A stretch of DNA of 64,000 nt from Herbihabitans rhizosphaerae. Its GTDB lineage: Bacteria > Actinomycetota > Actinomycetes > Mycobacteriales > Pseudonocardiaceae. The position numbers and the translations under genes are program-made. This document shows, in pieces, positions 17,501 to 22,213 of this stretch. The stretch spans positions 651,219-715,218 of the forward strand of contig NZ_SGWQ01000002.1 in the NCBI RefSeq assembly GCF_004216555.1, read 5' to 3'. Below the pieces are notes generated by a model. It made no database searches. It had not been told where the DNA came from and was given only the letters and a program-made list of their open reading frames with translations. How positions within the stretch are numbered: position 1 is the first letter of the stretch; every line of letters begins with the position of its first letter.

Positions 17501-18488
17501 ACTCGACCAGCGTTCGGTCCACGGCGACCGGGGTCTTCGACACGGCCGTGAGGCCGAACGGGCGGGCCATTTCGTTCAGCTCCTCGATGGTTCGCTCACC
17601 ACCGCCGAAGAACACCAGCATGCAGAGGTCGTACATAGTGTTGACGTCGTGCTCGCGCAGCATTTCGATCACGAGTACCCGACCGTGCTCGCCCGCCGCC
17701 TCGGCACATCGGGACAGGATCACGCGGGCGTGCTCGTCGTCCCAGTCGTGCAGGATGTCGCAGAGCAGGTAAGCGGCAGCACCTCGAGGCAGTGGATCGA
17801 AGAAGCTCCCGGCGACGGTCGTGACACGGTGGTCGAGACCGGCCGCCGCGAACGCCTCCGCGGCGCGGGTGACGGTGGGCTCCAGATCCACCACTTGCCC
17901 GGTCACCGTCGGGTGCTCCTCGACGATCGCGCGCAGAACGGTGCCCACTCCGCCGCCGACGTCCACGATGGTGCCGAAGCGGCTCCAGTCGAACCGCCTC
18001 GCCATCTCCGGCGCCCGGACGTCGAACCGCCGCTCCATCCGGGCGTCGAACGACTGGCGCAGGGCCGGCCGGTCGGCGAGGTCCGCCCAGAAGTCACGGC
18101 CGTACCGGCGCGGGTACGCGGCGGTCGAGGTCTTCACCACGTCGAGCAGGTCGACGAACGCCAGTGTGGCTCGCCCGATGGCGGAGTCGATGTCGAGCTG
18201 ATCGAGAAGGTGGGTGTCGTGGTCGGCGCGCAGCGGACCGGCGAGCGCGGTCAGGCCGTACCGGTCCTCGACGAACTCGAGCACGCCGATCGTGACGAGG
18301 TGGTCGAGGACTCGCGTCAACGCCATCGGTGCCGTCGCGGTGGCTTCGGCGAGTTGCGCCGCGGTGGCACCGGTGTCGCCGATCAGGTCGGCCAGGCGCA
18401 GTGTCGCGGCGACTCGAATCGACATCGGCGTCGCCAAGCTCGCCATCTCCCACAGCGTCTCGGTCGGCGAACTGTGTCGATCAACCAT
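17478..18488 (-). CDS. SAM-dependent O-methyltransferase (plant-type, dimerising)
   Basis: A 336-residue enzyme of the O-methyltransferase family 2: an N-terminal winged-helix dimerisation domain (A-T-L-R-L-A-D-L-I), the SAM loop V-D-V-G-G-G-V-G-T-V-L-R (about residue 175), D-L-E-P-T, and L-L-C-D-I-L-H-D-W-D-D-E with the probable catalytic histidine. Close types methylate antibiotic and pigment hydroxyls, but no biosynthetic core gene is nearby, so the acceptor is unknown. Overlaps the facing hydrolase gene by 23 bp. Confidence 0.9.
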   Translation of the reverse strand: MVDRHSSPTETLWEMASLATPMSIRVAATLRLADLIGDTGATAAQLAEATATAPMALTRVLDHLVTIGVLEFVEDRYGLTALAGPLRADHDTHLLDQLDIDSAIGRATLAFVDLLDVVKTSTAAYPRRYGRDFWADLADRPALRQSFDARMERRFDVRAPEMARRFDWSRFGTIVDVGGGVGTVLRAIVEEHPTVTGQVVDLEPTVTRAAEAFAAAGLDHRVTTVAGSFFDPLPRGAAAYLLCDILHDWDDEHARVILSRCAEAAGEHGRVLVIEMLREHDVNTMYDLCMLVFFGGGERTIEELNEMARPFGLTAVSKTPVAVDRTLVEFTATTTG

Positions 18489-18562
18489 GGACCGAGGCTA
18501 GCCGCGAAATGAGAGCGGCGGAACCCGTTGCGGTACAACGGGTTCCGCCGCACTACCTCCCC

Positions 18563-20209
18563 TTACAGCGGCTGCTCCAGCACGTACTGCTTGCGCAGTC
18601 CCTCGCCGCAGTCCACCTCGACGGTGCGGCGGGCGACCAGCGTGCCGTCACCGTTCTGCAGCGAGTAGCCGACCTCCGTGGTCTCCGGGACCACGGTCAC
18701 ATTGGTCGGCACCCGACCACTGGCCGACAGCCGGCGCAGCAGCCGTTGCTGCTGCTGGTCCAGCACCTCGTCCACCGACGACGCAGAGGACCGCGCACTG
18801 GACGCGGAACCCGACGGGTCCGGCGGCACGGACGCCGACCGGTCGAGCACGTCCTCGACCCTGCGGCTGGCGTCCACGATGCGGGTCACCGTGCCGGTGC
18901 CGTCCACGCTCACCCGGACCTCGCCGACGCCCGGCGTGACGACCGGAACGCCGTCGATCACCTGGGTCAGCACCACGGTGGTCTCCTGACGACGCGGGTC
19001 GACCGTCTCCTCGCGGCTCGCGCCGGCGTTGTACGCGTGGCGCACCTTGTCCGCGATGAGATCGACGTTCTCCGCCAGTCCGAACGATTCCACGGCCTGC
19101 TGGGCGAGCCGCACCGCTTCCTCGGCGTCCGGCGCGTCCCGGCCGCCGCCGTCCGGCCTGGCGAACCTGATCTCCCGGGTGCCGTCGGCGGTGACCGACA
19201 GCGTCGGGCCGTCCCCGCCGGAGCGGAGCACGATGCCCTGCGAACCCGCCGGCATCTCGGCGCGCTCCTCGCTCGACACGCCGAACTGTTGTGCCAGTTG
19301 GGAAAGCCGGTCGGTGGACAGGTCCGGTGCGAGGAACCGAACGCTGGTCACGGCGTCCGGCAGCGTCTCCAACGGCGCGGAGATCTGCTTGGCCGCGTCG
19401 TACCAACGCCACCACCACCAGGCCTTGCTCGGCCTGCCGTCGAAGAAAGCGCGCTCGTTGAAGCACCGGTCCTGCGCCTCGGCCTGAGTGGCACCGAATC
19501 CGACGGCGGACGGCGCCTGCTTGGTGTAAATGCGCCACGACGCGTCCAGCCACGCGTCGCTGAACGAGTGGTCCGCGCCCTTGTTCCATTCCTGGAAGAA
19601 GAACTTCCCGTAGTTCGGGCTGTCGATGCTGATCGTTTCGAAACCGAACAGCATGCGCAGTCCGAGATTCGAGTTGTACCAAGTGCGAATCGGACTGTGG
19701 CCGGCGTGCACCCGCAGCGAAAGGCACGTGGAGAAGAACACGTACCGCGCCATCTCGTTGCCGAGCCGCATGTCGTTGGAGCTGGCCCAGGCCGTTCCGC
19801 CCCAGGTCGCACCCATGGGAATCCAGAAGACGCCGTTGCCGTCCATGTCGCCGTGGCCGGAGTGGTAGACCACTCGCGCCGCGTCGAATCCGTAGTCGTC
19901 CTGCCAGTTGTCGTATGTCTCGCCGTAGATCCAGGCCTGGACGTTTCCGTCCTTGTACCAGAAGTTCGGCGTGTTGAACTGTTTGACGTAATCGTGGAAA
20001 CCCAGAGCGTCTTCATGCGTGGCACCCAGGTCGCTGATTCCCGCTGGGAAATCCTCGATCGAACAGAAGCCGTACATGTCCTGCTTGACGCCCTTGGTTT
20101 CCTCCCGCGTCGCCTTGCCGGGCGCGAACGGGTTAGCCGCACCGATCACGCTCAACCCGGCGGTAGCCGTCTCCGCCGCGGTCGCGGTGTCGGGCTTCAG
20201 TAAAGCCAT
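18563..20209 (-). CDS. DUF6345-like protein with caspase-like His/Cys pair
   Basis: A 548-residue protein. The N-terminal half (about 40-290) looks like a DUF6345 domain. It contains V-V-Y-H-S-G-H119-G120-D and, after the next core strand, Y-V-F-F-S-T-C162-L-S-L. A His-Gly after one hydrophobic strand and a Cys after the next is the arrangement of caspase/gingipain-fold peptidases (inference). The C-terminal half has PepSY/FTP-like strands and a flexible S-S-A-S-S-rich linker. No signal peptide or TM segment is seen. The strong ribosome site AGGAGGAGGG is complementary to an upstream leader segment. Confidence 0.75.
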   Translation of the reverse strand: MALLKPDTATAAETATAGLSVIGAANPFAPGKATREETKGVKQDMYGFCSIEDFPAGISDLGATHEDALGFHDYVKQFNTPNFWYKDGNVQAWIYGETYDNWQDDYGFDAARVVYHSGHGDMDGNGVFWIPMGATWGGTAWASSNDMRLGNEMARYVFFSTCLSLRVHAGHSPIRTWYNSNLGLRMLFGFETISIDSPNYGKFFFQEWNKGADHSFSDAWLDASWRIYTKQAPSAVGFGATQAEAQDRCFNERAFFDGRPSKAWWWWRWYDAAKQISAPLETLPDAVTSVRFLAPDLSTDRLSQLAQQFGVSSEERAEMPAGSQGIVLRSGGDGPTLSVTADGTREIRFARPDGGGRDAPDAEEAVRLAQQAVESFGLAENVDLIADKVRHAYNAGASREETVDPRRQETTVVLTQVIDGVPVVTPGVGEVRVSVDGTGTVTRIVDASRRVEDVLDRSASVPPDPSGSASSARSSASSVDEVLDQQQQRLLRRLSASGRVPTNVTVVPETTEVGYSLQNGDGTLVARRTVEVDCGEGLRKQYVLEQPL

Positions 20210-20212
20210 GGT

Positions 20213-20260
20213 CCCTCCTCCTGCAGCTGCGCGTGGGTGGCCCCACGCTTAGGAGGAGGG
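20213..20260 (-). promoter_or_regulatory. Leader hairpin able to sequester the Shine-Dalgarno
   Basis: In the minus-strand transcript CCCUCCUCCU (20260-20251) is a perfect 10-base complement of the ribosome site AGGAGGAGGG (20222-20213), 3 nt from the AUG. The loop contains a second stem GCGTGGG/CCCACGC (20248-20242 with 20237-20231). It could control translation (a thermometer or ligand switch); the inner stem could also serve as a terminator for the upstream DHFR-like gene. Confidence 0.6.
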
Positions 20261-20287
20261 CGCGGCGTTACCGGAGATACACCCTGA

Positions 20288-20854
20288 CTAGGGATTCTCC
20301 GGAGCGAAGCTCGAGTACGTGATGCCGCTGCGGAACGCCTGGACGTCCAGCCGCCGCAACGTCGGGACCTCGAACCCGTCGGGGAACAGCCGCCGGCCAC
20401 GCCCCTGCACGACGGGGAAGGTGTACAGGCGGTACTCGTCGACCAGACCCGCCTCGATCAGCGTGTGGCACAGCGTGATGCTGCCGGTGACCACGATGTC
20501 GCGACCCGGCTGTTCCTTCAGCGCGCGAACCTCGGCCACCGGATCACCGGACAGCACGGTCGTGTTCTGCCACGCCGGATCGGTGATCGTCGACGAGACG
20601 ACGTACTTGTGCACGTCGTTGAGGTAGGCCGACACACCCGTGGTGTCCTCATCGATCACAGTCGGCCAGTAGCCGCGCAGGTCCTCGAAGGTCTGCCGGC
20701 CGGCGAGGAACGCGTCCGCCGCGCCCATGTGCCGGTGCTGCACCTCCAGCAGATCGGACATGTCGACATCGCCGCCCTGCGCGGCGAACCAGTCGCCGAG
20801 CATCTCGATCGAACCGTCGAGCGTGATGTTCTGGGTGATCGCGAGCGTGCGCAT
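20288..20854 (-). CDS. Dihydrofolate reductase-family protein (RibD C-terminal-like)
   Basis: A 188-residue NADPH-dependent reductase fold: M-R-T-L-A-I-T-Q-N-I-T-L-D-G-S-I-E at the N-terminus, G-R-Q-T-F-E-D-L-R-G-Y-W, Y-V-V-S-S-T-I, and D-I-V-V-T-G-S-I-T-L-C-H-T-L as the nucleotide loop. Proteins of this family are common in actinobacteria and mostly uncharacterised; they are not the housekeeping FolA. AGGAGGACCAC precedes the ATG. It lies upstream of the DUF6345-like gene on the same strand, 78 bp away. Confidence 0.88.
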   Translation of the reverse strand: MRTLAITQNITLDGSIEMLGDWFAAQGGDVDMSDLLEVQHRHMGAADAFLAGRQTFEDLRGYWPTVIDEDTTGVSAYLNDVHKYVVSSTITDPAWQNTTVLSGDPVAEVRALKEQPGRDIVVTGSITLCHTLIEAGLVDEYRLYTFPVVQGRGRRLFPDGFEVPTLRRLDVQAFRSGITYSSFAPENP

Positions 20855-20908
20855 GTGGTCCTCCTTCTGGTCGTCACCCGTACCGACTCGCGCGGCGGCG
20901 AGAACTCA

Positions 20909-22213
20909 TCACACCCGGCTCAGGAAATGGTCCAGCACCTCGACGCCGAACCGCAGCCCGTCGACCGGCACCCGCTCGTCCACGCCGTGTGCCATCGCCC
21001 GGTAGTCGAACCCGACCGGGAGCCGCAGCGGCGCGAACCCGTAGCACTGGATCCCGAGTCGGGAGAACGCCTTCGCGTCGGTGCCGCCACCGAGGCAGTA
21101 CGGCACCACGATCGCCTCGGAATCGTTGGCGCGCAACGCATCCGCCATCGCGTCGAACCACGGCGAATCGATCGGCGCGTGCACGGCGGGGGAGCGGTGC
21201 AGGAACTCGCGGGTGATCTTCGGCCCGAGCAGTGAGTCCACTGTGGACAGGAACTCGTCCTCGCTGCCGGGCAGCGTGCGGCCGTCCACGTGCGCGTGCG
21301 CGACGCTCGGGATCACGTTCACCCGATTGCCCGCGGACAGCACGGTCGGGGTGGTGCTGCTGCGCACCGTGGACTCGACGATCTTCGCCGCCGGGCCGAG
21401 CCGCGCCAGTGTTCCGTCCACATCGGACAGATCCACCTCGACGCCCAGTGCCGCGCCGGCGCGCTCCAGGAACGCCTGCGTGGCGGAGAACAGCCGCACC
21501 GGCCAGTCGTGCGCGGCCAGCCGGGACAACGCGTCGACCAGGGTGCGCACGGCGTTGTCGTCGTTGCGACGGGAGGCGTGGCCGGCCCGTCCGGTCGCGG
21601 TCAGCCGCAGCGACGACGTGCCGCGCTCCGCGGTCCCGACGGGGTAGAGGCGCACGGGCTCGCCGGACGCCGAGGTGGCGTGGTAGCTGTACCCGCCGGA
21701 CTCGCTGATCGCCGCCGCGCAACCGTCGAACAGCTCCGGGTGCTCCTCGGCCAGCCACGCTGCGCCGTAGTGCCCGCCGGTCTCCTCGTCGGCGACGAAC
21801 GCCAGCACGATGTCGCGGCGCGGCCGCCGACCGTCCAGCGCCCAGCGGCGCAGCACGGCGAGCAGCATCGCGCACATGTCCTTCATGTCCACCGCGCCAC
21901 GCCCCCACACGTAGCCGTCCGCGATCTCACCGGCGAACGGCGACACCGACCACAGCTCCGGGTCGGCCGGCACGACGTCCAGGTGCGCGTGCACGAGCAA
22001 CGGGTCCAGCGTCGGGTCGCTGCCCGGCACTCGCGCCACGACATTGGTGCGCCCCGGCTCGCGTTCGTAGGACCGCGGGGCGAGCCCGGCGGCGGTCAGG
22101 TGATCGGTGACGAACTCCGCCGCCGCCGCTTCTCCGCGCGCCTCGCCGACGGCGAAGTTGGTGGTGTCGAAGCGGATCAGCTCCGCGAGCAACTGCTCGA
22201 CCGACTCAGCCAT
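20909..22213 (-). CDS. M20-family metallopeptidase
   Basis: A 434-residue M20/M25/M40 zinc peptidase. Metal-site motifs are V-H-A-H-L-D-V-V-P-A, G-A-V-D-M-K-D-M and catalytic A-D-E-E-T-G-G, with a lid/dimerisation insert (G-R-A-G-H-A-S) and a late histidine in L-G-G-G-T-D-A-K-A-F. It should cleave dipeptides or N-acyl amino acids in the cytoplasm. Its ATG overlaps the end of the upstream D-aminopeptidase gene by 8 bp, so the two are an operon. Carries a GTCCACTGTGGAC repeat (21236-21248). Confidence 0.9.
   Translation of the reverse strand: MAESVEQLLAELIRFDTTNFAVGEARGEAAAAEFVTDHLTAAGLAPRSYEREPGRTNVVARVPGSDPTLDPLLVHAHLDVVPADPELWSVSPFAGEIADGYVWGRGAVDMKDMCAMLLAVLRRWALDGRRPRRDIVLAFVADEETGGHYGAAWLAEEHPELFDGCAAAISESGGYSYHATSASGEPVRLYPVGTAERGTSSLRLTATGRAGHASRRNDDNAVRTLVDALSRLAAHDWPVRLFSATQAFLERAGAALGVEVDLSDVDGTLARLGPAAKIVESTVRSSTTPTVLSAGNRVNVIPSVAHAHVDGRTLPGSEDEFLSTVDSLLGPKITREFLHRSPAVHAPIDSPWFDAMADALRANDSEAIVVPYCLGGGTDAKAFSRLGIQCYGFAPLRLPVGFDYRAMAHGVDERVPVDGLRFGVEVLDHFLSRV

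Follow-up and report, generated by a model that had tools for sequence, protein, structure and literature searches.

The Shine–Dalgarno hairpin of a DUF6345 gene in Herbihabitans rhizosphaerae: probably an ordinary or incidental case rather than a switch

The window analysed here, a stretch of 64,000 nucleotides from Herbihabitans rhizosphaerae, contains a gene whose Shine–Dalgarno (SD) sequence is fully complementary to a segment of its own leader. Is this pairing a regulatory switch, or a structure of a more common kind? The original prediction, made from the sequence alone, proposed a thermosensor or a small-molecule switch in front of a caspase-like gene. According to the present analysis, the hairpin is most likely an ordinary or incidental case of a known kind, and the switch interpretation is not borne out.

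The hairpin and the genes around it are read on the minus strand, where its elements follow one another as CCCTCCTCCT, AA, GCGTGGG, GCCA, CCCACGC, GCAGCTGC, AGGAGGAGGG, ACC and the ATG start codon (20209–20207). The 5′ arm, the anti-SD CCCTCCTCCT (20251–20260), is a perfect complement of the SD AGGAGGAGGG (20213–20222), which lies 3 nt before the ATG and constitutes the 3′ arm. The ten base pairs enclose 28 nt, and the prediction of this pairing was correct to the base. A second stem of 7 bp had also been placed in the loop; it is present, formed by GCGTGGG (20242–20248) and CCCACGC (20231–20237). The stem of the hairpin is interrupted by an asymmetric 2/8 internal loop, the 8-nt side of which is GCAGCTGC (20223–20230). 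The minimum free energy (MFE) structure goes beyond the original prediction, since the start codon and codons 2–4 are predicted to be buried as well: CGGTAACGCCG (CGGTAA-C-GCCG; 20263–20273), the 5′ side of a lower stem, pairs with the last two bases of the ATG and codons GCT TTA CTG (20198–20208). A smaller hairpin (CGGAGA/TCTCCG, CCCT/AGGG; 20272–20301) is folded around the stop codon of the preceding gene. The SD hairpin has an MFE of −47.5 kcal/mol over 94 nt (z −3.55), and the fold of the 121-nt leader has a z of −4.26; each was equalled by 0 of 200 shuffles. In the 121-nt fold, the stop-codon hairpin, the ribosome-binding-site hairpin and an enclosing GCUUC/GAAGC stem together form a closed three-way arrangement.

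On the full leader, the computed cost of opening the SD falls from 21.3 kcal/mol at 30 °C (probability of an open SD 5e-16) through 19.8 at 37 °C (about 1e-14) and 18.8 at 42 °C (about 1e-13) to 14.8 at 60 °C (2e-10). The pairing of a good SD with 16S rRNA is given as about 8–9 kcal/mol at 37 °C in PMC2176067; this is less than the opening cost, so the pairing cannot pay for opening the hairpin. The earlier expectation that ribosomes would be excluded if the full leader is transcribed thus agrees with a calculated cost of about 20 kcal/mol. For an RNA beginning at 20252 or later, the computed cost is about 5 kcal/mol, a normal value.

The gene behind the hairpin (18563–20209) encodes a 548 aa protein with a DUF6345 domain (PF19872, E = 5.4e-12). 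The upstream gene (20288–20854) encodes a protein with a dihydrofolate-reductase-like RibD_C domain (PF01872, E = 7.5e-22), and its stop lies 78 nt before the DUF6345 ATG, an interval taken up nearly entirely by the hairpin. Beyond it, on that strand, lie genes for an M20 peptidase and for a presumed DppA. An O-methyltransferase gene lies downstream, separated from the DUF6345 gene by a terminator-like 17-bp hairpin (18515–18551) found by a terminator scan. An M20 match was found in 44 genomes, and in 11 of 11 relatives' loci inspected from these the DppA–M20 pair was present, adjoined in none of the 11 by RibD or DUF6345 (1.5 kb flanks); the RibD–DUF6345 junction therefore looks local to the lineage.

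The description of the product as caspase-like is not confirmed. An alignment of 13 DUF6345 homologues shows no variation at H116, G118, H119, G120 and S160-T161-C162, and the HxGHG and STC motifs that these residues form resemble those of clan CD peptidases. These His/Cys motifs are what speaks for the label, which is not established: the protein matches DUF6345 and no caspase family in Pfam, and profile searches against the PDB returned one chance match or none, with nothing significant. An AlphaFold model built from four sequences had a mean pLDDT of 43, with values of 20–33 over residues 1–200, and was too poor for a fold search; a literature search for DUF6345 by name gave no match. Distant homologues with 35–37% identity occur on Paracoccus replicons (NZ_CP141053.1 and six other plasmid records), and the matches cover at least 80% of the query in five of these seven records.

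Conservation of the pairing in orthologues had been suggested as a check. Matches to the DUF6345 protein were found in 18 of 390 genomes of the family and 2 of 394 genomes of the class (own genome included in both counts), and at three loci in the search of genome contigs. Twenty homologues had a readable start: 16 from genus g11 of the same family, full-length or nearly so, one from the class and three from the genome contigs. All 20 have a purine-rich SD-like run before the gene, and none of the 20 has an anti-SD complement of at least 8 bp. The longest Watson–Crick SD helices among them are 7 bp (L023) and 6 bp (L003), and L005 has a 9-bp helix at a different place when G–U pairs are allowed. 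Their SD opening costs are 3.5–13.1 kcal/mol, against 21.3 kcal/mol in H. rhizosphaerae. The window shares no upstream block with 15 same-family homologues, which, when aligned, have a strongly conserved promoter-like block about 70–110 nt upstream that is absent from the window; in genus g11 (L005–L019) this block reads CTGAAAAAATTGCGCTGAAGGTGTGGCAAAAAGATGTATCC. RibD was not found near any of the 20 homologues within the flanks examined. The upstream DNA of the homologues is unrelated to the leader in the window, and the leaders do not descend from a common one. With this reservation, all 20 homologues show the outcome that the original prediction had named as its refutation, an SD kept while the complement is absent, and a conserved leader was rejected. 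It is a fair statement that the pairing appears private to the lineage, the genus being represented in the comparison by its own genome alone. In genome G126 of genus g11, separated pieces of the DUF6345 gene lie in different matches (L021 and L022), apparently a decayed copy; since the gene is broken there, these fragments were left out of the counts.

The reading that we tentatively prefer is that of a lineage-specific, GC-rich and U-poor hairpin at the RibD/DUF6345 junction, possibly the terminator of the RibD gene, whose 3′ arm happens to serve as the SD of the next gene. It draws on the sequence, the predicted fold and energy, the rarity and the non-conservation of the structure; upstream transcription, termination and an internal start are what we infer in addition. 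RNA arriving from RibD or from further upstream would carry the SD and the start codon buried in the hairpin, which may also terminate or slow this RNA, so that DUF6345 would not be made by read-through. The protein would be translated hardly at all, or else only from RNA that starts inside or after the hairpin and has a short leader or none, as with T4 gene e. Most likely, the hairpin at most blocks stray read-through expression of DUF6345.

As a hairpin following a stop codon, the structure ranks 21st of 356 by energy in a 464-kb sample of the genome, which makes its position and stability ordinary for the post-stop hairpins of this genome. Its base lies 75 nt past the RibD stop and 3 U occur in the next 10 nt. 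This U content is not that of a canonical intrinsic terminator, in which a U tract comes after the hairpin. The terminator scan requires 5 T in 8; it listed the hairpin past DUF6345 and not the SD hairpin. The SD hairpin may be compared with the U-poor terminators of GC-rich actinobacteria: for Streptomyces, PMC12207403 describes terminators with 3–4 U and median distances of 66–76 nt from the coding sequence to the transcript end. With these, the SD hairpin shares its GC-richness, great stability, few U and a distance of about 75 nt from the stop; it differs in its interrupted stem and in that its 3′ arm is the SD of the next gene. Most of the strongest post-stop hairpins listed for this genome have stems free of a 2/8-type interruption, unlike the SD hairpin.

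The proposed release from such a hairpin has a parallel in phage T4, where leaders of e, soc, 49 and I-TevI are described as forming SD-hiding hairpins on longer transcripts, the repression of e being about 100-fold (PMC3014915). The predicted fold of the DUF6345 leader likewise pairs SD and start codon on a long transcript, and release in both would need RNA that lacks the 5′ arm. As reported in the same source, however, late promoters are known inside the T4 structures, whereas the DUF6345 hairpin belongs to a bacterial host, is unconserved and has no promoter found in it. A sigma-70 scan of 18400–21000 gave no promoter-like site, and many actinobacterial promoters would escape such a scan. 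Related bacteria often have mRNAs with short leaders or none: in Corynebacterium glutamicum, 33% of mRNAs are given as leaderless (PMC3890552). Should the blocking of read-through by the junction hairpin prove real, a bacterial chromosome would offer a case of the T4 arrangement, in which a gene is silent on read-through RNA and expressed from its own start; the gene concerned here would encode a possible protease-like protein.

The main rival explanation, which must be regarded as possible, is a chance match between a purine-rich SD and a pyrimidine-rich intergenic stretch in a genome of 69% GC, leaving the hairpin without a role. The frequency of such helices was estimated in a sample of 1.264 Mb, 19% of the genome (the window and 60 further stretches), where a crude gene caller, many of whose starts may be wrong, gave 988 genes, 581 of them with an SD-like start. 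By their longest SD helix, these 581 starts include 23, 6, 2, 1 and 1 cases of 6, 7, 8, 9 and 10 bp; that of DUF6345 is the sole 10-bp case and the longest in the sample. From the smooth fall of these counts, a few 10-bp cases are expected per whole genome in the absence of selection; such a helix is rare per gene, not per genome. The absence of the pairing from all 20 homologues also favours chance. Against it stand the two nested perfect stems with a paired start codon and the strongly negative z values of both folds. The opening cost at 30 °C is the second highest of the 581 (mean 7.7, sd 3.4 kcal/mol across the sampled genes) and was reached by 0 of 400 dinucleotide shuffles; when the 68 nt upstream were dinucleotide-shuffled with the SD held fixed, a 10-bp Watson–Crick helix arose in 1 of 1000 cases. 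The hairpin pattern is found a single time in the genome. No second copy of the 91-bp junction exists there (next best E = 0.04), the plasmid collection contains no match to it, and a repeat or mobile element was rejected on these grounds. The main use of the case is as a caution: a GC-rich genome is expected to contain a few SD helices of equal strength, and only a comparison of homologues tells them apart from genuine leaders like that of terC. Elsewhere in the genome (L101:16325–16425), the ATG of a gene that appears to encode an SRPBCC-type protein is immediately preceded by a short hairpin (CCTCCTCTTCGAGAGGAGG; 8 bp, TCG loop) that contains the SD.

The inverted repeat might also act as DNA, as the operator of a regulator, rather than as RNA. 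GCGTGGG-N4-CCCACGC is a perfect palindrome of operator size, but the 1.264-Mb sample contains it a single time, and the nine matches to the looser GTGGG-N2-6-CCCAC there have no evident context in common. None of the four neighbouring proteins examined was recognised as a regulator. This explanation is considered unlikely.

Slightly less credence still is given to a translational switch controlled by a ligand or a protein, such as a junction RNA composed of the stop-codon hairpin, the ribosome-binding-site hairpin and the enclosing GCUUC/GAAGC stem. The low z of the 121-nt three-way fold is in its favour, and so is a leader of the same genome that offers a control. A 9-bp SD helix, second in length within the sample, precedes the gene at L040:1425, which we assign to the TerC family from its protein sequence. 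Its leader (L040:1270–1424; G000:C2, about 281270–281424) contains the SD hairpin and, upstream, GGGGAGTA, which we take to be a signature of the yybP-ykoY family. Among the own gene and its homologues (30 loci fetched, 19 leaders examined), GGGGAGTA lies 123–204 nt upstream in 19 of 19 leaders. In 15 of the 19, CCTCCGG stands at most 66 nt from the start and is followed by CCGGAGG at most 22 nt from it; the exceptions are L129 and L131, where both or one of the two are missing, and L133 and L134, where both lie further upstream. An Rfam search of 8 of the 30 loci yielded one weak match to the yybP-ykoY Mn2+ riboswitch (L123, 23.4 bits against a gathering score of 45), and L040:1000–1600 gave no Rfam match at E up to 1. 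The leader is probably a divergent Mn2+ leader of the yybP-ykoY type below the Rfam gathering score; a yybP-ykoY leader preceding terC is described in C. glutamicum (PMC3890552).

Two consequences follow from the TerC leader. Its 9-bp SD helix means that a switch is not excluded just because the helix is strong, and its element, being common to homologues, means that a genuine SD-hiding leader of this genome can be recognised by comparing leaders. The DUF6345 hairpin resembles it in hiding an SD, but has neither GGGGAGTA nor TerC downstream; on comparison of the leaders, it does not behave like the conserved one, being shared by 0 of 20 homologues against 19 of 19 leaders for GGGGAGTA. The statement that the leader matches no recognised riboswitch class holds in Rfam: the hairpin region gave only three weak miRNA or sRNA matches at E up to 10 (best E = 3.9), and the window gave none at gathering score. 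A known riboswitch was consequently rejected. The proposed small-molecule switch found no Rfam match and no conservation, and little room, the 78 nt between the genes being nearly all hairpin, which has, in the predicted fold, no riboswitch-like part.

A more ambitious form of this explanation, held to be highly doubtful, is a new lineage-specific cis-regulatory RNA of about 110 nt over the RibD stop and the DUF6345 start, formed by the three-way junction, which would couple DUF6345 synthesis either to the termination of RibD translation or to a ligand or a protein. If true, a putative Cys-His hydrolase would be locked until released, with a rare TTA codon at position 3 inside the lock.

The least credible explanation is an RNA thermometer in which warming melts the helix and frees the SD: the SD does sit in a helix and is paired in the leader, as in ROSE and FourU thermometers, but known thermometers have mismatches and a U-rich strand, and the DUF6345 helix is perfect, GC-rich and far too stable. 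At the computed opening costs of 19.8 kcal/mol at 37 °C and 14.8 kcal/mol at 60 °C, the SD would stay closed through physiological temperatures, so the proposed thermosensor was rejected.

Codon 3 of the DUF6345 gene (20201–20203), within the lower stem, is TTA, a codon rare in this genome: any TTA is found in 17 of 216 SD-bearing genes. Dependence of DUF6345 on a bldA-type leucyl-tRNA through this codon is conceivable.
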